A stretch of 64,000 bases of DNA from Stenomitos frigidus ULC18 (GCF_003003795.1 NZ_PVWK01000027.1:1-64000); one strand, 5' to 3'. Positions 2 to 33,257 are shown, numbered from the stretch's first letter. A program made the numbers and translations. Notes: a model not told the origin generated them from the sequence alone.

Positions 2-1609
2 GGGAGCGGCCCCGCTGCGATGAGTTTGGCGCGTGAGTTCATGGGAACTAACACAAGAGTTTGTGTGTTGGAAAGCGGTGGCCTAGAGGTTGACCCACAG
101 GCACAGACACTCTCGGAGGCAACCACCACGGGCGATCCGTTTTTACCACCGCATGTGACGCGTCACCGTCAGCTTGGCGGCAATGCTAATATCTGGTCAA
201 TTAAGATCGGCAGTGGGCAGATGGGCGTTCGCTATGCGCCTCTGGACGACATTGATTTCGAGCAACGCGATTGGCTGCCCTACAGCGGTTGGCCTTTTTC
301 ACGATCGCACCTGGCCCCGTTCTATCAACGTGCTCAGGCAGCCTGTCAAGCTGGACCGTTTGACTATGACGCAGAAAGCTGGGAGAGCGAAACAACTGCC
401 CGACTGCCTCTTGATTGCGATCGAGTGACGACGACCATGTTCCAGTTTGGGCCTCGTGATGCCTTTGCGTCTGAGTCTCGTGACGCGTTGGCGCAGGCAA
501 AAAACATCACGGTTTACTACAACGCTACGGCTGTAGAACTGCATGCAAACGAACCAGCACAAACGGTTACTCGTGTTCGTGTGGCAACCTTCGAGGGCGG
601 ACACTTTGCCGTTGCTGCAAAGATTTTTATCCTCGCGAAAGGTGGCTTGGAAAATGCCCGCTTGCTGCTAGTCTCGCAGCAACAGCAGCCATCTGGTTTG
701 GGTAATCAGCATGATCTGGTGGGTCGTTTTTTCATGGATCATCCCCTCGTTGATGGTGGTATGTTCATCCCGAAAAGCCCCAAGCTGATTGACAAAATGG
801 CTCTGTATGATCTGCGTCAGGTTAAGCAAGTGCCTGTTATGGGTAAATTGACGCTCTCGAAAGCACTGATGCAGCGCGAACAGCTCTTAAATGTGGGTGT
901 GTTGATGTTCCCACGAGCCAGCCTACGTCAGTCTAGAGCGATCGTGGCATTCAAAACGTTAGGCGAAACGATCGCGGCTGGTGAACGACCGGATCAGATT
1001 CCCAAACGGCTCTATGAAATGCTTCAAGGGCTGGATTATGTTGCGATCGCCGCTTATCTCGCCGCAACCAAAAAGCAGTCTCTCTTTCACGGTTTTGGAC
1101 GCGGTGGTTGGTCAGAGCTATCGCATAATCACCGCCGCTTCAAAATGTTTCAGTTGTTTTATCAGACCGAGCAGGCACCCAATCCTCATAATCGGTTGAC
1201 CTTATCCTCAGAGCGAGACGCGTTAGGCTGTCAAAAGCTGGAGTTGCACTGGCGTTGGCGTGATCTTGACGCTGAGAGCATCCGTCGCACCCACGAATTG
1301 TTGACAGCAGAGATCGCGCGATCAGGCCTGGGTGAACTGCGGCGTGAAGGGTCTGAACCACTCCAAGTCCTGTCGCCTTCTGGCGTCGCCCATCACATGG
1401 GCACCACACGCATGCACATTGATCCGAAGCAGGGCGTTGTGGATGAACAGTGCTGTGTGCATGGCCTGACAAATCTCTTTATTGCCGGAAGTTCGGTGTT
1501 TCCGACGGGCGGTTATGCGAACCCGACGTTGACCATTGTGGCACTGTCGCTCCGTTTGGCAGACCATGTGAAGCAGGTGCTCCAGCAAGCGTTGATCGAA
1601 GTTCGGTGA
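2..1609 (+). CDS. GMC-family oxidoreductase, 5'-truncated by the window edge
   Basis: The open frame runs in from the left edge: the first full codons read GSGPAAMSLA, which is the end of the FAD-binding Rossmann glycine motif, so the ATG at 20 is internal and the true start lies before the window. Other GMC features are the N-terminal FAD contact region (RQLGGNANIW near residue 57 of the visible part) and a C-terminal GMC block with GTTRMH and NPTLTIVALSLRLADH. Family knowledge says such flavoproteins oxidise alcohols, sugars or sterols. Unlike the two GMC enzymes at 25-30 kb, this one has no CxxCxxC cluster in mid-protein, so it belongs to another subfamily. Substrate unknown. Confidence 0.9.
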   Translation, partial: GSGPAAMSLAREFMGTNTRVCVLESGGLEVDPQAQTLSEATTTGDPFLPPHVTRHRQLGGNANIWSIKIGSGQMGVRYAPLDDIDFEQRDWLPYSGWPFSRSHLAPFYQRAQAACQAGPFDYDAESWESETTARLPLDCDRVTTTMFQFGPRDAFASESRDALAQAKNITVYYNATAVELHANEPAQTVTRVRVATFEGGHFAVAAKIFILAKGGLENARLLLVSQQQQPSGLGNQHDLVGRFFMDHPLVDGGMFIPKSPKLIDKMALYDLRQVKQVPVMGKLTLSKALMQREQLLNVGVLMFPRASLRQSRAIVAFKTLGETIAAGERPDQIPKRLYEMLQGLDYVAIAAYLAATKKQSLFHGFGRGGWSELSHNHRRFKMFQLFYQTEQAPNPHNRLTLSSERDALGCQKLELHWRWRDLDAESIRRTHELLTAEIARSGLGELRREGSEPLQVLSPSGVAHHMGTTRMHIDPKQGVVDEQCCVHGLTNLFIAGSSVFPTGGYANPTLTIVALSLRLADHVKQVLQQALIEVR

Positions 1610-20871: not shown

Positions 20872-21137
20872 GGGAATGAACTACCTGCATCAAGAATGTA
20901 ATCTCATAAAATTTATCATGTTTTGTCGGTGAAAAAGCACTGAGCCGCTGTACTCAACCAGCTAAACATAAAAGCTTGCTGAGAATAACCTTAAAAAATT
21001 CTCGCTGCAATCTCAGGATTGCGGACTGAACTCCTTAGAAATTTATCATCTTGCGATCATGATGCCCAGCAACAATGGTCGGTGAATTTGATAATCACAA
21101 ACACGGCTTACTAATGTTGATTAAGGAAATTTCAACG

Positions 21138-21674
21138 ATGAACGTGAAACGTTGGATTTTGTTAAGTTTAGCGTCCTTGGTCTTTATTGGTTATGTAGGC
21201 AGAACCATCAAGAATCAGGCGGCTGAAAGCCCTCTTCCTTCGGCTACAAGTGCTGCTGCACAATCGATAACGTCAGAATTGATTGCTCAAGCAATGAATT
21301 CCACAAAGCCAACAACGATCAAGTCTGGCAGTTTTGCCTCTGGCGAACAATCCACTCAGGGAACGGCACGGATTATCGCCCAAGACGGCAAACTCTTTCT
21401 GGAACTTGGTGAGGGCTTTAAGACCTCCAACAAGGGTCCCGATCTCGTTGTAATTCTACATCGCTCTAGTAATGTATTGGGTGCCACAAAGCCACCCGCG
21501 TATCCGTTGCAAGCAGGGGATTATCTGCTTCTGGCACCGTTACGTAAATTTAGCGGTACTCAGCGGTATGCCATTCCTGCAACAGTCAATGTAGCAGAGT
21601 ATCAATCTGCTGCCATCTGGTGCCGCAAGTTTAATGCAACGTTTGGTGCTGCCAAGTTGGTTAGCAGTCGGTAG
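21138..21674 (+). CDS. DM13-domain protein, exported
   Basis: 178 residues from the ATG at 21138, chosen because AAGGAAAT precedes it at good spacing and MNVKRWILLSLASLVFIGYVG is a clear signal/anchor; an in-frame ATG at 21075 is less likely. The DM13 domain covers about 75-178: GSFASGEQSTQGTARI, KTSNKGPDLVVIL, and CRKFNATFGAAKL with the near-invariant Cys. DM13 domains are predicted redox domains, by family knowledge often coupled to hydroxylases or electron transfer. First gene of the downstream redox block, 68 bases before the SDR gene. Confidence 0.88.
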   Translation: MNVKRWILLSLASLVFIGYVGRTIKNQAAESPLPSATSAAAQSITSELIAQAMNSTKPTTIKSGSFASGEQSTQGTARIIAQDGKLFLELGEGFKTSNKGPDLVVILHRSSNVLGATKPPAYPLQAGDYLLLAPLRKFSGTQRYAIPATVNVAEYQSAAIWCRKFNATFGAAKLVSSR

Positions 21675-21742: not shown

Positions 21743-22540
21743 ATGACACTTAAAGGCAAAGTTGCTCTTGTGACGGGCAGTAGCCAGGGTATTGGACAGG
21801 GCATTGTTCTACGGTTGGCTCAAGCAGGAGCCGATGTCGTGATTAACTACCGCTCTCACCCAGAAGGCGCTGAAGAAACCCTGGAGAAGGTGAAGGCGAT
21901 CGGGGGTAAGTGCTATCTGGCAGAGTGTCCACAGTCCCAGGCTTATACGGTTCAAGCAGACTTAGGCAATGTGGATATGGTGCGCGAGCTGATTGCTGAA
22001 AGTATTGGGCATTTTGGCAAGCTGGATATTCTCGTAAACAATGCTGGCATTGAGAAACACGCGCCATTTTGGGACGTGACGGAAGCAGATTATGATGCAG
22101 TGCTGAATGTCAATTTAAAGGGTGTGTTCTTTGCCACGCAAACCTTTGTGCAGCATTTGATGGAAACGAAGCGTCCTGGCAAAATCATCAATATTAGTTC
22201 AGTGCATGAGGATCTCCCCTTCCCCAATTTCACGGCATACTGCGTTAGCAAGGGCGGGATGAAAATGTTTACCCGTAATCTGGCAGTGGAATTGGGTGCT
22301 TTGGGTATCACCATTAACAACGTTGCACCAGGCGCGATCGAAACGCCCATTAACACCAAACTGCTGAATGACCCCGAAAAACTCGGTGCCTTGCTCAAAA
22401 ATATTCCACTGGGTCGCTTAGGGCAACCGCAGGATGTAGCGTCCCTGGTAGCATTCCTGGCTTCGTCCAATGCCGATTACATCACCGGCAGCACATTCTT
22501 TGTAGATGGTGGGTTGCTTTGGAATTACCAGGAGCAATAG
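21743..22540 (+). CDS. SDR-family dehydrogenase, glucose 1-dehydrogenase-like
   Basis: 265 residues with all SDR motifs: TGSSQGIGQGI (cofactor), NNAG, catalytic Ser in ISSVHE and YCVSKGG. Closest in type to glucose/ribitol dehydrogenases. An unusual insertion of about 15 residues (GGKCYLAECPQSQAYTVQADL) lies after beta-strand 3. AAGGAG precedes the ATG. The aquaglyceroporin gene begins 31 bases downstream, so the two are probably one unit; the pair suggests polyol or sugar metabolism. Confidence 0.93.
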   Translation: MTLKGKVALVTGSSQGIGQGIVLRLAQAGADVVINYRSHPEGAEETLEKVKAIGGKCYLAECPQSQAYTVQADLGNVDMVRELIAESIGHFGKLDILVNNAGIEKHAPFWDVTEADYDAVLNVNLKGVFFATQTFVQHLMETKRPGKIINISSVHEDLPFPNFTAYCVSKGGMKMFTRNLAVELGALGITINNVAPGAIETPINTKLLNDPEKLGALLKNIPLGRLGQPQDVASLVAFLASSNADYITGSTFFVDGGLLWNYQEQ

Positions 22541-22571: not shown

Positions 22572-23396
22572 ATGAATGCTTTACGTCATCACTATCCGGA
22601 ATATCTGATGGAAGCTTTTGGCTTAGGTCTCTTCATGGTTTCTGCCAGTATTGCGACAGCGGTCTTGGAGCATCCAGCTTCACTGATCCATCAGTTCATT
22701 GCTGATCCACTCGCGCGACGATTGATGATTGGGATTACGATGGGATTGACCGCGATCGCCATCATCTACTCTCCCTGGGGCAAACAATCTGGCGCACATC
22801 TAAATCCAGTTGTCACTCTTACCTTTTTTCGTTTAGGTAAGGTTAAACGGATGGATGCCCTTTTTTACATCCTGGCACAATTTGTGGGCGGTTTGCTGGG
22901 AGTGCTGCTGGCAGCAAAGCTTCTAGGAACGTCGATCGCTCATCCCACCGTTAGTTACATTGTCACCATTCCCGGAGCGGGTGGAACTGCGATCGCTTTT
23001 CTGGCAGAACTGATCATTTCCTTTGGCATCATGATGATGATTCTGGTCGTTTCCAATACACCGACACTGGCACGCTTTACTGGAGTCTTCGCAGGACTAT
23101 TGATTGCGACTTACATCACCTTAGAAGCGCCCCTCTCTGGCATGAGTATGAATCCCGCTCGCACATTGGCTTCTGCAATTCCCGCTCATAACTGGACGGC
23201 TCTTTGGATCTATTTTACTGCCCCACTCTTGGGAATGTTAGCTGCGTCTGAGGTTTATGTCCGCTGGAAAGGACGAAAAGCGATACGCTGCGCCAAATTG
23301 CACCATCACAACACTAAACGCTGCATTTTTCGCTGTGGCTACCGCGAACCGATGGTCGGTAATAGATCACAGCGATTAAGCGATCCATTGCTGTAA
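22572..23396 (+). CDS. MIP-family channel (aquaporin/aquaglyceroporin) with Cys-His tail
   Basis: 274 residues, six transmembrane helices. The two pore boxes are HLNPVVTL (NPV rather than NPA) and MNPARTLAS (canonical NPA). The altered first box is known in some bacterial MIP proteins. After the last helix comes a tail of about 40 residues with CAKLHHHNTKRCIFRC, that is C-x3-HHH-x4-C-x3-C, which looks like a metal-binding element rather than a random tail. Substrate (water, glycerol, metalloid or peroxide) cannot be told. Confidence 0.92.
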   Translation: MNALRHHYPEYLMEAFGLGLFMVSASIATAVLEHPASLIHQFIADPLARRLMIGITMGLTAIAIIYSPWGKQSGAHLNPVVTLTFFRLGKVKRMDALFYILAQFVGGLLGVLLAAKLLGTSIAHPTVSYIVTIPGAGGTAIAFLAELIISFGIMMMILVVSNTPTLARFTGVFAGLLIATYITLEAPLSGMSMNPARTLASAIPAHNWTALWIYFTAPLLGMLAASEVYVRWKGRKAIRCAKLHHHNTKRCIFRCGYREPMVGNRSQRLSDPLL

Positions 23397-23492
23397 AGCA
23401 ACTGCTCAAACGCTTTAATTTGAACGAGCTAATCTTCTAAAGTGCCCCTACCTGGGTTGTATCAGTCAGCCGTCATTTATGAGGAACTCAGT

Positions 23493-24833
23493 ATGTTTGA
23501 GAGTCTTGCAAGAATTCAGCATCCCTTTGCCAGAAGTTTAACCGCCGGATTGACAGCCCTTTCAGCGATCGCTCTTGCCTCTGCGATCGTCATAGGAGTA
23601 ACCAAATCAAAAGACGAATCTGCTTACAAAACAGCGTTGTATACCTCCTTGATTGGAGCCGGATGTGGCGCATTCTTTGGTCTTGCTTATACAAATAAGA
23701 GAGATCAGAAAAACACAACTCAAACGTTACGTGATGGACAATCTACTCAAGCAACCGAAAGCACGGACTGGAAAGACTGGCGCAACTTTGTCGTCATTCG
23801 CAAAGTAAAAGAAAGTGAGGAAATTACCTCCTTCTACTTAGAGCCAGAAGATAAGGGCGATATTCCAACGTTTCAACCTGGTCAGTTTCTCACTATTAAA
23901 TTGGATATTTCAGGACAAGCAAGACCGATCATTCGCACCTATTCGCTATCAGACTATCCTGAACCACATGTATACTATCGCCTCTCCATCAAGCGGGAAC
24001 TGATGCCAAGCGGGTTGGATGTCCCACCAGGCATTGCCTCAAATTTTATGCATGATCAGATTCATGAGGGTGCGGTGATTCCGGCAAAGCCCCCCAGCGG
24101 TAAATTCATCCTGGATGTAAATAAGACATTGCCTGCGGTGCTGATTAGTAATGGAGTTGGCATTACACCCATGATTAGCATGGCAAAAGCGGCTACTCGT
24201 CTAAATCCCGATCGCCCCGTTTGGTTTCTACATGGTGCACGCGATGGCAGGTTTCATGCGTTTCGTGATGAGATCAGGGCGATCGCAGCGCAAAACTCTA
24301 ATTTGATGCTTCATTTCGCTTACAGCCGTCCCCGTGACGAAGATGCGAATCATCACCACAGCGTCGGCTACGTCGATACGGCTCTCATTCAATCTCTGGT
24401 GATGCAAGAAGCCGAGTATTTTCTGTGTGGTTCGCCGCCCTTTTTAGAATCCATCCGTAGCGGTTTAAAGCAGGCGGGTGTACCTGACAACCATGTCTTT
24501 TTTGAGATGTTCACCAAGGCAAGTAAGGCAACCAGCGATCGCGTAACCACTGACGTTGACCACGCCGACGTTGAAGCAGCAGAAATCGTCTTTGCCCAAT
24601 CCAATCAAACAGTCATTTGGCAAGGGGATGCCGATAGCCTTCTAGCGTTTGCGGAAGCCAATGGGTTGAACCCTCCGTATAGTTGTCGTCAAGGGATTTG
24701 TGGCACCTGCGAGTGCAAACTTCTAGAGGGTGAAGTGGACTATCAAACAGCGCCTACAGCTGCGATCGAGGACGGTTCAGTACTCATTTGTATCTCTAAA
24801 CCAAAGACCGCTAAAGTTGTCCTCGAATTGTAG
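23493..24833 (+). CDS. Membrane-anchored flavin reductase-ferredoxin hybrid
   Basis: 446 residues from ATG 23493, chosen over 23442 because GAGGA lies 7 bases upstream. N-terminal hydrophobic helices (about 15-65) are followed by an FAD-binding barrel (about 90-200, with RTYSLSDYPEP), an NAD-binding domain (about 200-335, GVGITPMISM, YFLCGSPPF) and a C-terminal plant-type 2Fe-2S ferredoxin domain (Cys398, 403, 406 and 433). This is the architecture of hydroxylase or nitric-oxide-dioxygenase-like reductases. It would pass electrons from NAD(P)H to a partner such as the neighbouring oxidoreductases (inference). Confidence 0.92.
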   Translation: MFESLARIQHPFARSLTAGLTALSAIALASAIVIGVTKSKDESAYKTALYTSLIGAGCGAFFGLAYTNKRDQKNTTQTLRDGQSTQATESTDWKDWRNFVVIRKVKESEEITSFYLEPEDKGDIPTFQPGQFLTIKLDISGQARPIIRTYSLSDYPEPHVYYRLSIKRELMPSGLDVPPGIASNFMHDQIHEGAVIPAKPPSGKFILDVNKTLPAVLISNGVGITPMISMAKAATRLNPDRPVWFLHGARDGRFHAFRDEIRAIAAQNSNLMLHFAYSRPRDEDANHHHSVGYVDTALIQSLVMQEAEYFLCGSPPFLESIRSGLKQAGVPDNHVFFEMFTKASKATSDRVTTDVDHADVEAAEIVFAQSNQTVIWQGDADSLLAFAEANGLNPPYSCRQGICGTCECKLLEGEVDYQTAPTAAIEDGSVLICISKPKTAKVVLEL

Positions 24834-25171: not shown

Positions 25172-26752
25172 ATGTCTACAATGAACCATTACGACATTAT
25201 TATCATTGGCACAGGTGCAGGGGGTGGCACCCTGACCTATCGTTTAGCCCAAAGCGGTAAGAAGATTCTGGTGCTGGAGCGAGGTCCTTTTCTACCCAGG
25301 GAAAAAGAAAACTGGGATGTGAAAACGGTGTTCAATAGCGATCGCTACCACAACTCTGAAGTCTGGTACGACAAAGATGGCAAGGAACTCCATCCCGGCA
25401 TGAGTTATTTTGTCGGTGGCAACACAAAAGTCTATGGTGCGGCACTGTTCCGTCTCCGCGAAAAAGACTTTGAGAAATTTCAGCACAGAGATGGTATTTC
25501 ACCCGAATGGCCGCTGAAGTACAAGGACTTCGAACCTTATTACGTACAGGCAGAAAAGCTTTACCAGGTGCATGGAAAAGGTGGGGAAGATCCAACTGAA
25601 CCGTTTCGGAGTGCAGAGTTTCCCTATCCTGCTGTGAGCCATGAAGCGCGCATCCAAGAAATTTCAGAGGTCTTACAGTCCAAAGGTCTGCATCCTTACC
25701 ACACACCTGTTGGCATTCACTTAAATGAGGCACAACGCTATCTGAGCGAGTGTATTCGGTGCAATACCTGTGATGGGTTTCCATGCCTGGTTCATGCCAA
25801 GTCGGACGCTGAAGTCAGCACGGTTCGTCCGGTGATGGGAGCAGACAATGTGACGCTGTTGACAGACGCTAAGGTGCTGAAACTGCACACGAGCCCTTCT
25901 GGACGCGAAATCTCCAGCGTTGAGGTAGAAGTGCGTGACCCAGAATCAGGGCAGGTTCATGTGCAGCAGTTTTCTGGCGATATAGTGGCGATCGCATGTG
26001 GTGCCATCAATACGTCTGTCCTGCTGCTCAAATCTGCGAATGAAACGCATCCGCATGGACTCGCCAACCGTTCTGATCTGGTCGGACGCAATTTTATGAA
26101 GCACGTGTTGGGTTCCATTATCGGTGTCAGTAAAAAGCCGAATCCCACGAAGTTTCAGAAAACTCTATCTATCAATGACTTTTACTGGGGTGAGGATGGT
26201 TACGACTATCCAATGGGACAAATTCAAACCCTGGGCAAAGTTAGTAAAGAAGCGTTGGAAGGCAATGCTGCCGCCTATGCACCGCTGACCCCTGAAGACG
26301 TTGCGACTCATTCCATTGACTGGTGGCTCACCGTTGAAGATCTGCCCGATCCCAACAATCGCATTCGAGTCGATGGTGACAAAATCATTCTGGACTACAC
26401 GGAAAACAATTTGGAAGCCTACGATCGCCTGGAGCAGCGCTGGATCGAGATCTTGAAATCCATTGAATGCGGACAGGCAATTATGCCGAACTGCTCTTAC
26501 TTTGCGGGTGCGGGTCAAACCTATACAGGCAGACTGCCTCTGGATGGCGTTGGGCATCAAGTTGGCACCTGTCGCTTCGGGGATGATCCGACCACCTCGG
26601 TGTTAGATCTCAATTGCCGTACCCATGACATTGACAATCTCTACATTACCGATGGTAGCTTTTTCTGTTCTAGTGGTGCTGTGAACCCGACTTTAACGAT
26701 CATTGCGAATGCGTTGCGAGTAGGAGACCACCTGATTGAACGACTGAAATGA
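25172..26752 (+). CDS. GMC oxidoreductase with four-Cys motif (paralog 1)
   Basis: 526 residues. FAD-binding GTGAGGGTLTYRLA at about 13-26, VGGNTKVYGAALFR around 88-101, and a C-terminal GMC domain with HQVGTCRFGDDP, an active-site His-type position and NPTLTIIANALRVGDH. A cysteine cluster C194-x2-C197-x2-C200-x4-C205 (CIRCNTCDGFPC) lies in the hinge region, where FAD-dependent glucose/gluconate dehydrogenases carry Cys ligands for a 3Fe-4S cluster. No signal peptide is visible. Likely oxidises a sugar or polyol; substrate unknown. Paralog at 28842. Confidence 0.9.
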   Translation: MSTMNHYDIIIIGTGAGGGTLTYRLAQSGKKILVLERGPFLPREKENWDVKTVFNSDRYHNSEVWYDKDGKELHPGMSYFVGGNTKVYGAALFRLREKDFEKFQHRDGISPEWPLKYKDFEPYYVQAEKLYQVHGKGGEDPTEPFRSAEFPYPAVSHEARIQEISEVLQSKGLHPYHTPVGIHLNEAQRYLSECIRCNTCDGFPCLVHAKSDAEVSTVRPVMGADNVTLLTDAKVLKLHTSPSGREISSVEVEVRDPESGQVHVQQFSGDIVAIACGAINTSVLLLKSANETHPHGLANRSDLVGRNFMKHVLGSIIGVSKKPNPTKFQKTLSINDFYWGEDGYDYPMGQIQTLGKVSKEALEGNAAAYAPLTPEDVATHSIDWWLTVEDLPDPNNRIRVDGDKIILDYTENNLEAYDRLEQRWIEILKSIECGQAIMPNCSYFAGAGQTYTGRLPLDGVGHQVGTCRFGDDPTTSVLDLNCRTHDIDNLYITDGSFFCSSGAVNPTLTIIANALRVGDHLIERLK

Positions 26753-26798
26753 CTTATGGCGTTAGCTTTGTAAACTCTCTAATCAATGGCCATTGACT

Positions 26799-27677
26799 AT
26801 GACTACAACCTGGCACATGACAAAAAAAATCAAGCCTCAAGTCCTGACTGAAGGTAGACTGCAATTGCATTATGCAATCCAGTTTATTGCCGCTACAGGC
26901 ACGGCCTTGGCAGAAGCACTCCCAGATTACAGCCACACCAGCTTGTCGTGGCATCCAGTTTTAGAAGTATTTGTGGGTGCAGCCATTCGAGCCGCTCAAC
27001 CGTTTCAAGTGGCGCTTGATCCAGTCAATCTGAAATTAATCCTCTTGAATCAGCAGAGTGAAGCGATCGTATCCCTTCCCTTACATGGAAAGACGATGGT
27101 AGAAGGACTAAGCTGGCTTCAGCAAGCGGTTTCTCAACTGGGTGCAGATGCCAGCAAAATTGCGTTTCTGGATTATCCACCCGATGACTTTCCTGATCAT
27201 CCCCTGGCTCACGGTGCCACCTTTGATGCCAGTCAACCATCAGCGTTGAGCGAACTGACCGATTACTACGTCAATACGTATCTACTCTTTCAATCCATCA
27301 TCACAGCGAATGAGGATGCAACCGCTATCCGTATCTGGCCGCATCACTTCGATATGGCAACACTCATCATGCTTCCCGGTACTAGAAATGGAAGCGCACT
27401 CACAGTCGGCGTTGGTTTATCGCCTGGAGACGCCAACTATAACGAGCCCTATTGGTACGTGTCGCCCTATCCCTATCCAGACACAGCCAGTCTTCCTGTT
27501 CTCGACGGTCATGGCTTTTGGCATACTCAGCACTGGGTGGGGGCGGTATTGCCTGCATCCCAACTCACTGAGTTTAGCAGTGTGGAAGCGCAACAGCAGC
27601 AAGTTGAAGCCTTCTTACAATCTGCATTAGCCCTGTCAATCTCCCTTCTTCAGCCTGTATCTCCTGCCAAGGTTTGA
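26799..27677 (+). CDS. Unknown protein with IWPHHFD motif (DUF5996-like)
   Basis: 293 residues from ATG 26799 (a TTG six bases upstream is the alternative). The conserved-looking core is AIRIWPHHFDMATLIML followed by VGVGLSPGDANYNEPYWYVSPYPYP, which resembles DUF5996-type proteins; His, Asp, Trp and Tyr suggest a binding pocket. No signal peptide or membrane segment. It sits between a GMC gene and a VOC gene, its stop just before the VOC start, so it is surely co-transcribed with them. Biochemical function unknown. Confidence 0.8.
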   Translation: MTTTWHMTKKIKPQVLTEGRLQLHYAIQFIAATGTALAEALPDYSHTSLSWHPVLEVFVGAAIRAAQPFQVALDPVNLKLILLNQQSEAIVSLPLHGKTMVEGLSWLQQAVSQLGADASKIAFLDYPPDDFPDHPLAHGATFDASQPSALSELTDYYVNTYLLFQSIITANEDATAIRIWPHHFDMATLIMLPGTRNGSALTVGVGLSPGDANYNEPYWYVSPYPYPDTASLPVLDGHGFWHTQHWVGAVLPASQLTEFSSVEAQQQQVEAFLQSALALSISLLQPVSPAKV

Positions 27678-27679
27678 CA

Positions 27680-28777
27680 ATGCCTACACGATTTCATAAA
27701 CGACTCCAGCGATCGCTCCTCTCTGTCATTGCCTTTGCGGTGATTGTTGCGGCACCTCAACAGCACGCAGATTCCCAAAGTGCGCTGTCGAGTCAGGCAA
27801 CAACCCCGGTTCAACTGGCTCAAACCCAGACGGTTCAGAACGCCGTGGTTGCAGTCGAGTCAGTGGGTATGACCGTTTCGGATATGGATCGGGCAGTCGC
27901 TTTTTACTCGAATGTCTTGTCGTTCAAGAAAGTCTCTGATGTGGAAGTGCTGGGGACGGAGTATGAACAACTGCAAGGGCTTTTTGGTGTGCGGTTGCGA
28001 GTAGTGAAATTACAACTGGGTAATGAATTGCTTGAGCTAACCGAATATCTCACACCCAAGGGGCGACCCATTCCCATTGATTCCTGTAGCAACGATCGTT
28101 GGTTTCAACATAGTGCGATCGCCGTCAGCGATATGGATCAAGCCTATCAACACTTACGTAAATTTAAAGTACAACACGCTTCTACGGCTCCCCAACGTAT
28201 TCCTGACTCCAATCAAGCTGCCGCAGGCATTCGTGCGTTCTACTTTAAAGATCCAGATGGACATAATTTAGAAATTATTTACTTTCCATCTGGCAAAGGT
28301 GATCCGAAATGGCAAAAGCCAACGAATCAAATATTTTTAGGCATTGATCACACGGCGATCGTGGTCTCTAATACAGCAGCCAGCCTTAAATTTTACCGGG
28401 ATTTGCTGGGTCTGAGAGTGGCAGGGGAAAGCCTGAATTACGGCACTGAGCAGGAACATCTTAACAATGTGCAAGGTGCGCGACTGCACATTAGCGGGTT
28501 GCGTTCTCCTGCTGGACCCGGCATTGAGTTCTTGGAATACCTGAAACCAACGGATGGGCGATCGCTCCCTGCCGATGCTAGACCGAATGATCTGTTGCAC
28601 TGGCAAACCACTCTAGTGGTAAAGGATGTAGGGGCGATCGCCGAACGATTGCGACTTAATCAAGCCACGTTCATCTCTCCTAAGGTTGTGACCATTCCAG
28701 AGCAAAGACTAGGCTTCAAAAAAGCATTAATCGTACGCGATCCGGATGGTCATGCAATGCGCTTAGTTGAAAAATAG
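27680..28777 (+). CDS. Exported protein with two VOC (glyoxalase/dioxygenase-fold) domains
   Basis: 365 residues from ATG 27680, 3 bases after the previous stop. The N-terminal SLLSVIAFAVIVAAP looks like a signal peptide, unusual for a VOC protein. VOC domain 1 at about 54-195 (VGMTVSDMDRAVAFYSNVL ... KDPDGHNLEIIYF) and VOC domain 2 at about 215-365 (IDHTAIVVSNTAASLKFYRDLLGL ... RDPDGHAMRLVEK). Metal-ligand His and Glu positions at strand ends are present in both. Such enzymes isomerise, cleave or epimerise small molecules with a divalent metal; here it may act in the periplasm on a product of the neighbouring oxidases (inference). Confidence 0.88.
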   Translation: MPTRFHKRLQRSLLSVIAFAVIVAAPQQHADSQSALSSQATTPVQLAQTQTVQNAVVAVESVGMTVSDMDRAVAFYSNVLSFKKVSDVEVLGTEYEQLQGLFGVRLRVVKLQLGNELLELTEYLTPKGRPIPIDSCSNDRWFQHSAIAVSDMDQAYQHLRKFKVQHASTAPQRIPDSNQAAAGIRAFYFKDPDGHNLEIIYFPSGKGDPKWQKPTNQIFLGIDHTAIVVSNTAASLKFYRDLLGLRVAGESLNYGTEQEHLNNVQGARLHISGLRSPAGPGIEFLEYLKPTDGRSLPADARPNDLLHWQTTLVVKDVGAIAERLRLNQATFISPKVVTIPEQRLGFKKALIVRDPDGHAMRLVEK

Positions 28778-28841
28778 CCTACGTTGCCTTTGCTGCACGT
28801 CCATCCCCTCATCGCCCCATCTGCCCATCCCCCATCTCCCC

Positions 28842-30401
28842 ATGACGACTCACTACGACCTCATCATCATCGGCACTGGAGCAGGCGGCGGCACCCTTGC
28901 CTATCGTCTCGCGCCTACTGGCAAAAAGATTCTCATCCTGGAGCGCGGTTCGTTCTTGCCTAGAGAAAAAGCCAACTGGGACACTGTGCAAGTGGTACAG
29001 CAAGAGCGTTACCACACGTCAGAAGTTTGGTATGACCACAAAGGACAGGCAATCCATCCCGGTGTCGGTTACTTTGTCGGCGGTAACACTAAAGTCTATG
29101 GCGGTGCCCTCTTTCGCTGGCGAGAACAGGATTTTGATCGGGTCATTCATAAAGGTGGCATCTCTCCCGCATGGCCACTCAAGTACCGCGACTTCGAGCC
29201 ATATTACACGCAAGCAGAACAGCTTTACGAGGTGCATGGTCAGCATGGTATTGATCCGACCGAGCCTCCTGCAAGCGAGGCATACCCCTATCCCGCTATC
29301 AGCCACGAACCCCGCATTCAAGAAATACACGATACCTTGCAGAATCAAGGCTATCATCCATTTTACCTACCGTTGGCGGTTAAGCTAAACGAAGTCAATC
29401 GTCGCTTGAGCGCCTGTATTCGCTGCAATACCTGTGATGGTTTCCCCTGTTTGGTCGATGCAAAAGCTGATGCGGATGTCACCTGTGTGCGCCCTGCCGA
29501 GCAATACACCAATGTGACGCTGTTGACAGAAGCAAAGGTCAAACAGCTACATACCAATCCTTCTGGGCGAGAAGTTACAGCCGTAGAAGTCGAACTAAAC
29601 GGTGAAACTCATTTGTTTTGGAGTGACATTGTTGTGGTTGCTTGTGGTGCGATTAACTCTGCGGCGCTGCTGTTAAAATCAGCCAATGACAACCATCCAA
29701 ACGGGCTGGCAAACAGTTCTGATCAAGTTGGACGCAACTTAATGAAGCATCAGAATGGTGCCATTATTGGAGTCACTACAAAAGCGAATTTGACAACCTT
29801 TCAGAAAACGATGGCGGTGAATGATTTTTACTGGGGGGATGAGGAATTCGACTATCCGATGGGTCATGTGCAATTGCTGGGTAAAATCAATGCCGATATG
29901 ATTGCTCAGGAATCTCCTTCGTTTTTGGGGCTGTCGTTTCGGGAACAGCATGCGTTTGAGACGATCGCGTCTCACTCCGTCGATTGGTGGCTGACAGCGG
30001 AAGACTTGCCTTACCCGAATAATCGCGTCACCTTGCGGGGAGAGTCCATTCAATTACATTACACCGAGAACAATACCGAAGCCTACGATCGCTTACTGAA
30101 TCGATGGATTGGCGTTCTCAAAGGCATTGGCTGCGGTGAGCAAATCATTCCTGCCTCCTTCTACTTCCGCAAAAAGCTACCCTTGCAAGGTGTGGCGCAT
30201 CAGTGTGGCACCTGTCGCTTTGGTGACGATCCAGCGACGTCTGTCCTTGATCTCAACTGCCGCACCCATGATGTAGACAATCTCTACGTGGTGGATGGCA
30301 GTTTCTTCCGCTCCAGTGCGGCTGTTAATCCCACGCTGACGATTATTGCGAATGCGTTGCGGGTGGGTGATCATTTGGTTGAACGCATGGGTGCGACATA
30401 G
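28842..30401 (+). CDS. GMC oxidoreductase with four-Cys motif (paralog 2)
   Basis: 519 residues from ATG 28842. An upstream in-frame extension is encoded by a C-rich spacer (28795-28841) and is not likely translated. Clearly paralogous to the GMC enzyme at 25172: same FAD motif GTGAGGGTLAYRLA, same VGGNTKVYGGALFR, and the same CIRCNTCDGFPC cluster (first Cys at residue 192). The C-terminal HQCGTCRFGDDP differs from paralog 1 by one extra Cys. The two genes probably arose by duplication around the intervening DUF5996-like and VOC genes. Confidence 0.9.
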   Translation: MTTHYDLIIIGTGAGGGTLAYRLAPTGKKILILERGSFLPREKANWDTVQVVQQERYHTSEVWYDHKGQAIHPGVGYFVGGNTKVYGGALFRWREQDFDRVIHKGGISPAWPLKYRDFEPYYTQAEQLYEVHGQHGIDPTEPPASEAYPYPAISHEPRIQEIHDTLQNQGYHPFYLPLAVKLNEVNRRLSACIRCNTCDGFPCLVDAKADADVTCVRPAEQYTNVTLLTEAKVKQLHTNPSGREVTAVEVELNGETHLFWSDIVVVACGAINSAALLLKSANDNHPNGLANSSDQVGRNLMKHQNGAIIGVTTKANLTTFQKTMAVNDFYWGDEEFDYPMGHVQLLGKINADMIAQESPSFLGLSFREQHAFETIASHSVDWWLTAEDLPYPNNRVTLRGESIQLHYTENNTEAYDRLLNRWIGVLKGIGCGEQIIPASFYFRKKLPLQGVAHQCGTCRFGDDPATSVLDLNCRTHDVDNLYVVDGSFFRSSAAVNPTLTIIANALRVGDHLVERMGAT

Positions 30402-30542
30402 GATGTTCAATCATCTTTGGATGTCCCTCTTTGAATCGGCTGTTCCTTGAATCTGGCTGATGGAATCCAAGCAAATGTTTTTGATGATGGCACGATCGCG
30501 TGAGCTAGCAAAACTAATTTTTTGTATAAGGTGACATTCACG

Positions 30543-33257
30543 ATGGCAACTCCAACTCAAGAAGAACTGCGGTTAGAAGAAGCAATCGCCCACAAAGCCC
30601 ACTGGCGGCGATGGGGACCCTATTTGAGCGATCGCCAGTGGGGTACCGTACGCGAAGATTACAGTCAGTATGGCACTGCCTGGGACTACTTCCCCCATGA
30701 CCAGGCACGTTCGCGTGCCTACCGCTGGGGTGAAGATGGGTTATTGGGGATTTCCGATAACCATCAACGGCTGTGCTTTGCGATCGCCCTGTGGAATGAG
30801 GAAGATCCCATCTTGAAAGAGCGCTTATTTGGGCTAACAGGCAGCGAGGGGAATCATGGTGAAGATGTCAAAGAATACTACTTCTACCTGGACAATACCC
30901 CCACGCATTCTTATATGAAAGCGCTGTATAAGTATCCGCATCAAGCCTTTCCCTATACTCAATTGGTAGAAGAGAATCGTCACCGCGATCGCCATCAACC
31001 AGAATATGAGTTGCTGGATACGGGAGTCTTTAATGAGAATCGCTACTTTGATGTGTTTGTGGAATATGCCAAGCGATCGGCGGAAGATGTGCTGATCCAA
31101 ATTACTGTCATCAATCGCGGCACGGAAGCAAAAACGCTACATTTGTTGCCGACCCTCTGGTTTCGTAATACCTGGTCATGGAATGGAGATGCAGAGAAGC
31201 CAACCCTACAAGCACTGCAATCGGGTCATGATGGACGCGTTATCGGTGCCTTCCATCCGACATTAGGAAACCGGTGGCTTTATGCTCCAGGCAAGGCAGA
31301 CATTCTTTTTACAGAAAACGAGACCAATCATGAGCGCGCCTTTGGCACTCCGAATGCTTCCCCCTATGTGAAAGATGGCATTAATGATTATGTTGTCAAC
31401 GGCTGCAAAGAAACGGTGAATCCTGCCCAGACAGGCACAAAAGCGGCTATTCACTATGTCTTCATGCTTTTACCTGGAGAAACCAAAACGATTCAATTAC
31501 GACTCAGTGATGTCCCAAATTTAACCGACCCGTTGGGGCATGAATTTAACGCAGCGTTTGCAGCGCGAAAACAGGAAGCCGATGCCTTTTACCAGCGCAT
31601 TACGCCGTTTCCACTTAGTGACGATCAGCGCCATGTCCAGCGGCAAGCCTTTGCTGGCATGTTGTGGTGCAAGCAGTATTATCACTACGTGATTGAAGAC
31701 TGGTTGAAAGGTGATGCTGCTGCACCGAAGCCGCCGATAGAACGCAAGCGCGGTCGAAATCGTGAGTGGTTCCATCTCTATACCGATGATATTCTCTCCA
31801 TGTGTGATAAGTGGGAATATCCCTGGTTTGCTGCCTGGGATCTCGCCTTTCATTGCGTGACCCTGGCGATGATTGATCCTGACTTTGCCAAATACCAGTT
31901 AGATGTGCTGACGCGGGAATGGTATATGCACCCCAACGGGCAAATACCAGCTTACGAATGGGCGTTTGGCGATGTGAATCCGCCGGTTCATGCCTGGGCC
32001 ACCTGGCGGGTTTATCAAATTGAGCAAAAGATGTATGGGAGAGCCGATCGCCAGTTTCTAGAGCGCGTTTTTCAAAAACTCATGCTCAATTTTACCTGGT
32101 GGGTCAATCGCAAAGATACTGAAGGCAATAATGTCTTCCAGGGTGGCTTTCTGGGCTTAGACAATATTGGTGTCTTCGATCGCAGCGCCACACTTCCCAC
32201 CGGGGGACATATCGATCAATCCGATGGCACCAGTTGGATGGGGATGTATTGCCTCAATATGTTGACCATCGCTTTGGAGCTAGCCAAAACCAATCCCGTC
32301 TACGAAGACATTGCGACCAAGTTTTTTGAGCACTATCTCTATATTGCCGATGCCATGAATCACATCGGCGATATGGAAGCCTCGCTCTGGAACGAAGCCG
32401 ATGGATTCTACTATGATGTACTGCATTTACCGGACGATCGCCAGATTGAAATGAAAGTGCGATCGATGGTTGGTCTCATTCCCCTCTTTGCGGTTGAAAC
32501 GCTGGCACCAGAAACCTTGCAACAACTGCCAAATTTCAAAAAACGTCTGGAGTGGTTCATCCAAAATCGTCCTGATTTACGGCGAAATGTCGCTTGTATG
32601 GAAACAAGAGGCATGGGTGCAACCCGCTTGCTGGCGATCGCTTCGCAGGAAAAGCTCAGACGCATTCTACAAAAAATGCTGGATGAGTCAGAATTCTTTG
32701 GTGACTATGGCATCCGAGCCGTCTCTCGTTATCATGCTGACCATCCTTACATTTTTTATGCCAACGGCATGGAGTGCCGGGTGGACTATGAACCCGCTGA
32801 ATCCAGCAGTGGACTGTTTGGTGGTAATTCTAACTGGCGTGGTCCGGTCTGGTTTCCAGTCAATTATTTACTCATTGAATCACTGCAAAAGTTTCATCAC
32901 TATCTGGGTGATACCTTTAAAGTTGAATGCCCCACTGGCTCCGGTCAAATGCTTACACTCAAAGAGGTAGCATCAGCCTTATCACAACGATTGACTCAGA
33001 TCTTTCTGAAAAACGCAGCGGGCTATCGTCCAGTGTATGGCGGCAGTGAAACGTTTCAGACCGATCCGCACTGGCGTGATTTTATCCTGTTCTATGAATA
33101 CTTCCACGGCGATAACGGAGCAGGCATTGGTGCCAGCCATCAAACGGGTTGGACTGGCTTAGTCGCTCAACTCCTTCAGCAGCTTGGTGAAGATGACAAG
33201 CAAGATCAGCCGCTAAACCCCACTCAGGCAACGATCGAAACAACCACGTTTCGATAA
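30543..33257 (+). CDS. GH63-like (MGH1-type) glucosidase
   Basis: 904 residues from ATG 30543 (TTG 30522 is a weaker alternative). Large (alpha/alpha)6-barrel glucosidase of the MGH1/GH63-like type: N-terminal [21 protein letters not shown], central [39 protein letters not shown], and C-terminal [21 protein letters not shown] and [38 protein letters not shown] regions, where the acidic residues are typical catalytic positions. No signal peptide, so cytosolic. By family it releases glucose or mannosylglycerate-type products from alpha-glucosides; downstream neighbour of the GMC/VOC genes. Confidence 0.92.

Follow-up and report, generated by a model that had tools for sequence, protein, structure and literature searches.

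Two genes within a 64,000-nucleotide stretch of the Stenomitos frigidus ULC18 genome (GCF_003003795.1, NZ_PVWK01000027.1:1-64000; termed here the window) encode glucose-methanol-choline (GMC) oxidoreductases, GMC-A and GMC-B, that share a loop containing four cysteines. The explanation that best accounts for these proteins as a whole, and that is considered likely here, is that they are dehydrogenases dependent upon flavin adenine dinucleotide (FAD) in which the loop holds an iron-sulfur (Fe-S) cluster serving as a one-electron exit. Its parts are not equally firm: judging from sequence, Fe-S binding by the loop is very probable, dehydrogenase rather than oxidase activity is quite probable, and a [4Fe-4S] cluster in the four-cysteine form is the assignment toward which we lean. 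We infer the metal content, nuclearity, substrate, acceptor and compartment of both proteins along the following lines: a sugar or polyol would be oxidized by the FAD-dependent enzyme; a catalytic His/Asn pair would move hydride from this substrate to FAD; electrons would leave the FAD singly through the cluster in the four-cysteine surface loop (most likely [4Fe-4S], with [3Fe-4S] in natural variants that lack the third cysteine); and they would then pass to a partner, which may be a quinone or the respiratory chain, a ferredoxin, or a nearby reductase carrying a 2Fe-2S domain (termed here FNR-2Fe2S).

In the six reading frames of the window, the motif C-x2-C-x2-C-x4-C (whose cysteines are termed here C1 to C4) occurs twice, once in GMC-A and once in GMC-B, and nowhere else (Table 1). 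Chance was ruled out as its origin, inasmuch as there are two copies, confined to these genes and conserved across phyla. An earlier, sequence-only reading of this DNA had correctly placed the motif, CIRCNTCDGFPC, in the middle of both proteins and had also rightly noted that the GMC gene at the start of the window (20-1609) is without it; that gene has no cysteine cluster, and its sole domain match is GMC_oxred_C. The same reading had described GMC-A and GMC-B as adjacent: they do lie near each other, but with two other genes between them. Both genes are intact open reading frames, that of GMC-B opening at a TTG (28767) upstream of its ATG; in both, the Pfam matches to GMC_oxred_N and GMC_oxred_C exceed the curated cut-off; and both retain, in alignment with homologs, the catalytic His/Asn pair (H462/N505 in GMC-A and H453/N496 in GMC-B). 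Neither N-terminus has a hydrophobic segment (no dedicated signal predictor was run), the GMC protein starting at the Rossmann strand, and both enzymes are probably cytoplasmic.

Searching the sequences in the PDB with either protein ranks first the large subunit of Gluconobacter fructose dehydrogenase (FDH; 7w2j, 8jej) and the α subunit of Burkholderia cepacia FAD-glucose dehydrogenase (BcGDH; 6a2u, 8grj), at E about 1e-36. The fold of GMC-B, predicted by AlphaFold2 from 48 homologs (predicted local distance difference test score (pLDDT) 87.6; predicted template modeling score (pTM) 0.92), retrieves the same enzymes: nine FDH or BcGDH chains come first (template modeling (TM) score 0.82-0.84; E 1e-39 to 1e-45), and pyranose 2-oxidase and choline oxidase, which share the GMC superfamily fold, follow after a clear gap as far poorer matches (E about 1e-27; TM about 0.6-0.7). 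FDH, the top match, has in common with the window proteins the GMC fold, the catalytic His/Asn and a cysteine cluster in the same loop. In BcGDH this loop (residues 197-229) carries a 3Fe-4S cluster via Cys212, Cys218 and Cys222, that is, C-x5-C-x3-C, at 12-13 Å from the flavin (PMC6719666); the motif CxYCGFC, which the sequence-only reading had given for Fe-S enzymes of this family, differs from that of the solved structures. Alignments place the cysteines of GMC-A and GMC-B in the equivalent loop, where C1, C3 and C4 coincide with C212, C218 and C222 of BcGDH, C2 is an extra cysteine, and the gap between C3 and C4 is one residue longer than in three-cysteine loops, which (as C-x5-C-x3-C) are found in FDH, in BcGDH and in relatives from Paracoccus, Halobaculum, Deinococcus and Gluconobacter. 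Distant four-cysteine loops occur in Paenibacillus (CVRCGECVGFAC) and at L177 (CRICGHCANFAC; numbers prefixed by L, G or C are our own labels for loci, genomes and contigs).

The window proteins nevertheless differ from both solved enzymes. FDH has three ligand positions and is one member of a complex, the others being its small subunit and a multihaem cytochrome c; no genes for such a complex are found around the window proteins. BcGDH is secreted together with a γ subunit, a so-called hitchhiker for twin-arginine translocation, to which its C213 is disulfide-linked, and it carries FAD covalently on His105. The latter position is Val85 in GMC-B and V, I, L or F in most family members; the hitchhiker domain (Gluconate_2-dh3, PF13618) was found in 5 of the 58 genomes searched and not in this one; and no open reading frame with multiple CxxCH motifs (i.e., a multihaem cytochrome c) lies within 6 kb of any GMC gene in the loci examined. 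Because of these three results, which rule out membership, GMC-A and GMC-B are not filed with the FDH/BcGDH complexes; their flavin-to-cluster step probably works as it does there. Certain cyanobacterial GMC proteins of ~750 residues have an N-terminally fused Gluconate_2-dh3 domain (L096:2560-4827; also G009:C35, G025:C108 and G047:C1): the one whose loop was examined (L096, 756 residues, ~31% identical to GMC-B) has the three-cysteine type, CTNRGFCQVGC, without the extra cysteine. A hitchhiker-fused GMC used as a query against 146 cyanobacterial genomes gave no match at E ≤ 1e-60, a threshold too strict for this to be meaningful.

Conservation of the cysteines among homologs, a check that the sequence-only reading had proposed, was examined at two scales. 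Across 48 aligned homologs, C192, C195 and C203 of GMC-B never vary, and position 198 holds Cys, Phe or His. Among 138 distinct homologs, 95 have all four cysteines, 19 have only C1, C2 and C4, and 24 have none (21 by deletion of the whole ~20-residue loop and 3 through substitutions); one or two cysteines were never seen. Such an all-or-none pattern is what a single shared site would be expected to give. A wider, small sample contains exceptions: an Aureimonas protein with a single cysteine and a divergent Shinella protein with a different cysteine arrangement. Four-cysteine loops occur in Cyanobacteria and in eight other phylum-level groups (Chloroflexi, Planctomycetia, Ignavibacteria, Verrucomicrobia, Leptospirales, Gemmatimonadales, Bacteroidota and Azospirillum); within a phylum-wide draw of cyanobacterial genomes, 42 of 292 have a homolog at E ≤ 1e-100, loop-less paralogs included. 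In trees built without the loop columns (by a quick method with no bootstrap and with some long branches), the loop deletion forms a single clade (28 rows; SH-like approximate likelihood ratio test (SH-aLRT) 99), and the third cysteine was lost, to Phe or His, on at least two independent occasions (cyanobacteria; Caballeronia/Mesorhizobium).

The position of the loop, the identity of the closest folds (which are 3Fe-4S enzymes) and the all-or-none cysteines thus lend good, if indirect, support to the earlier suggestion of an Fe-S center; the type of cluster is a further step. Both proteins contain the ferredoxin-like [4Fe-4S] binding pattern, C-x2-C-x2-C plus a fourth cysteine, which is meant here as a pattern and not as a claim of homology to ferredoxins. 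Alternatively, the loop might bind [3Fe-4S] just as FDH and BcGDH do, the fourth cysteine having no ligand role, as would befit the cluster held by the closest solved relatives (PMC6719666). Three cysteines do suffice in the natural variants, but the invariance of the extra cysteine, C195, and the one additional residue in the loop argue against this alternative. Considering also that the loop begins with C-x2-C-x2-C, which we take to resemble 4Fe-4S ferredoxins, it seems doubtful.

Some observations do weigh against a [4Fe-4S] dehydrogenase: loop residues 191-210 of the GMC-B model reach only pLDDT ~63-70; the natural variants retain C1, C2 and C4 whereas BcGDH uses the equivalents of C1, C3 and C4, so that the ligand mapping is uncertain; and two GMC paralogs within the same MIP-MGH-VOC module (L072 and L074) keep the loop, as FDGYPD, with all four cysteines gone, which means that certain settings do not require the cluster.

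Many GMC superfamily enzymes are oxidases, and GMC-A and GMC-B could likewise reduce O2 directly, the loop being incidental; this is improbable, however, inasmuch as oxidase folds match the GMC-B model much worse and relatives are linked to respiratory genes, with the alternative respiratory terminal oxidase (ARTO), NDH-2 or DoxX beside GMC. It is on this kinship and linkage that the earlier claim of dehydrogenases rather than oxidases draws. Less probable still is a solely structural role, in which the cysteines bind zinc or form disulfides: four loop cysteines are able to bind Zn, and disulfides may appear in oxidized samples, but the homologous FDH/BcGDH loop binds Fe-S (PMC6719666), the loss of cysteines follows an all-or-none pattern, and one clade of paralogs that lacks the whole loop retains ~55% identity, so that the loop is not needed for folding.

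Known Fe-S GMC dehydrogenases, which are relevant to glucose sensing electrodes, are secreted, hold 3Fe-4S in a three-cysteine loop and come with a hitchhiker and a cytochrome as partners. That a widespread four-cysteine family lacks such partners points to an enzyme of simpler build, which may hold [4Fe-4S], and natural single-Cys variants of its loop provide material for testing the type of cluster. An open-access review of Fe-S flavoenzymes (PMC8097209) does not mention GMC enzymes, and no such enzyme is described in the open-access papers examined for the pairing of '4Fe-4S' with 'glucose-methanol-choline' (subscription papers being outside the search).

Four-cysteine GMC genes are surrounded by a recurring gene module, parts of which recur in other phyla (Table 1).

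Table 1. Features of the window associated with the four-cysteine GMC genes; fractions give the four-cysteine GMC genes having such a neighbor within 8 kb.
Feature	Coordinates	Strand	Basis or recurrence
DM13 protein, N-terminal hydrophobic helix; occasional neighbor	21075..21674	+	8/95
Short-chain dehydrogenase/reductase (SDR), glucose 1-dehydrogenase-like; commonest neighbor	21743..22540	+	71/95
MIP channel, module member	22572..23396	+	42/95; also in non-cyanobacterial loci
FNR-2Fe2S reductase: N-terminal transmembrane helix, FAD and NAD(P) domains, plant-type 2Fe-2S domain	23442..24833	+	Pfam, transmembrane helix, Cys spacing
GMC-A, four-cysteine GMC oxidoreductase, 526 aa	25172..26752	+	GMC_oxred_N and GMC_oxred_C
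GMC-A Cys loop CIRCNTCDGFPC, residues 194-205 (C194, C197, C200, C205)	25751..25786	+	
Protein of no known family, 294 aa	26793..27677	+	17/95
Double VOC (glyoxalase-fold) protein	27674..28777	+	24/95
GMC-B, four-cysteine GMC oxidoreductase, 519 aa counted from ATG	28842..30401	+	GMC_oxred_N and GMC_oxred_C
GMC-B Cys loop CIRCNTCDGFPC, residues 192-203 (C192, C195, C198, C203)	29415..29450	+	
MGH1-like/GH63-like glycoside hydrolase, module member	30522..33257	+	34/95

The sequence-only reading had proposed that electrons could feed the nearby ferredoxin hybrid (i.e., FNR-2Fe2S) or the DM13 protein. This is only suggestive: FNR-2Fe2S is a candidate partner, though unlikely as the acceptor, and co-occurrence does not support either as a general partner of the four-cysteine GMCs, since just 12 of the 95 have an FNR-2Fe2S gene within 8 kb and DM13 genes are rarer still. 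The 294-residue protein between GMC-A and the VOC gene had no match in Pfam, NCBIfam or PDB searches.

This genome contains further copies of the module: a near-complete one on contig C37 (L058, 1-14000), with SDR, FMN reductase, MIP, FNR-2Fe2S, GMC, unknown and VOC genes, whose GMC and SDR are 92% identical to those of the window; and a third on contig C34, with GMC, SDR, MGH and MIP. In Caballeronia and Mesorhizobium, among the neighbors are SMP-30/gluconolactonase, cupin, DoxX and VOC proteins, with SDR and a glycosyl hydrolase additionally in Mesorhizobium, hinting at aldose-to-lactone chemistry. At L037-L040 and L098-L101, GMC-B orthologs lie directly 3' of a gene for a DoxX/MauE-like membrane protein, mostly preceded by an NDH-2-like flavoprotein as well, which may constitute a second respiratory wiring. 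A Methylacidiphilum GMC involved in acetol oxidation adjoins a glyoxalase-type gene (PMC12235487), a parallel that concerns gene neighborhood alone.

The paralogs that lack the loop show a different association. Among 21 distinct loop-less paralogs, 17 are encoded directly downstream of coxC, another 3 have cox genes no more than 8 kb away, and 1 has no cox gene in the fetched stretch; by the same count, 3 of the 95 four-cysteine GMC genes are directly downstream of coxC and 2 more are within 8 kb. The cox operon beside the loop-less gene has the order DUF2231-DUF2231-COX2-COX1-COX3, with a COX2 that lacks the CuA cysteines; the ARTO operon of Anabaena, alr2729-alr2730-coxB3A3C3, is likewise described as CuA-less. 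Judged by gene order and sequence, then, the upstream operon is of the ARTO type. Every loop-less member has lost N496, and many have lost H453 too. Loop-less paralogs were seen on contig C32 of this genome (L059:9070-10596) and at L049, L075-L095, L216, L218, L220-L222, L226 and L227. Three GMCs in the ARTO operon position (L071, L175 and L176) already have N496S with the four-cysteine loop intact; hence the catalytic change preceded loop loss.

In two small-genome cyanobacteria (L220 and L222) the cox genes are followed in turn by loop-less GMC, MGH and four-cysteine GMC, a side-by-side arrangement pointing to a wiring of sugar to respiration. Tentatively, and with no great expectation that it will prove correct, the two kinds of GMC may be viewed as a sugar-oxidizing branch wired to ARTO, in which a [4Fe-4S] GMC would take electrons from sugar freed by the adjacent glycosidase and pass them either to the quinone pool or straight to ARTO; with its catalytic residues altered, the loop-less GMC would have become an accessory subunit of ARTO. 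If so, ARTO would have a sugar input of its own and one or more components so far unrecognized, the loop-less branch being a concrete candidate. Rhizobial relatives that are ~40% identical (L186, L187, L188 and L196) have lost every loop cysteine; at L186 and L188, the GMC gene comes after genes for sugar ABC transport and is itself closely followed by a second GMC gene.

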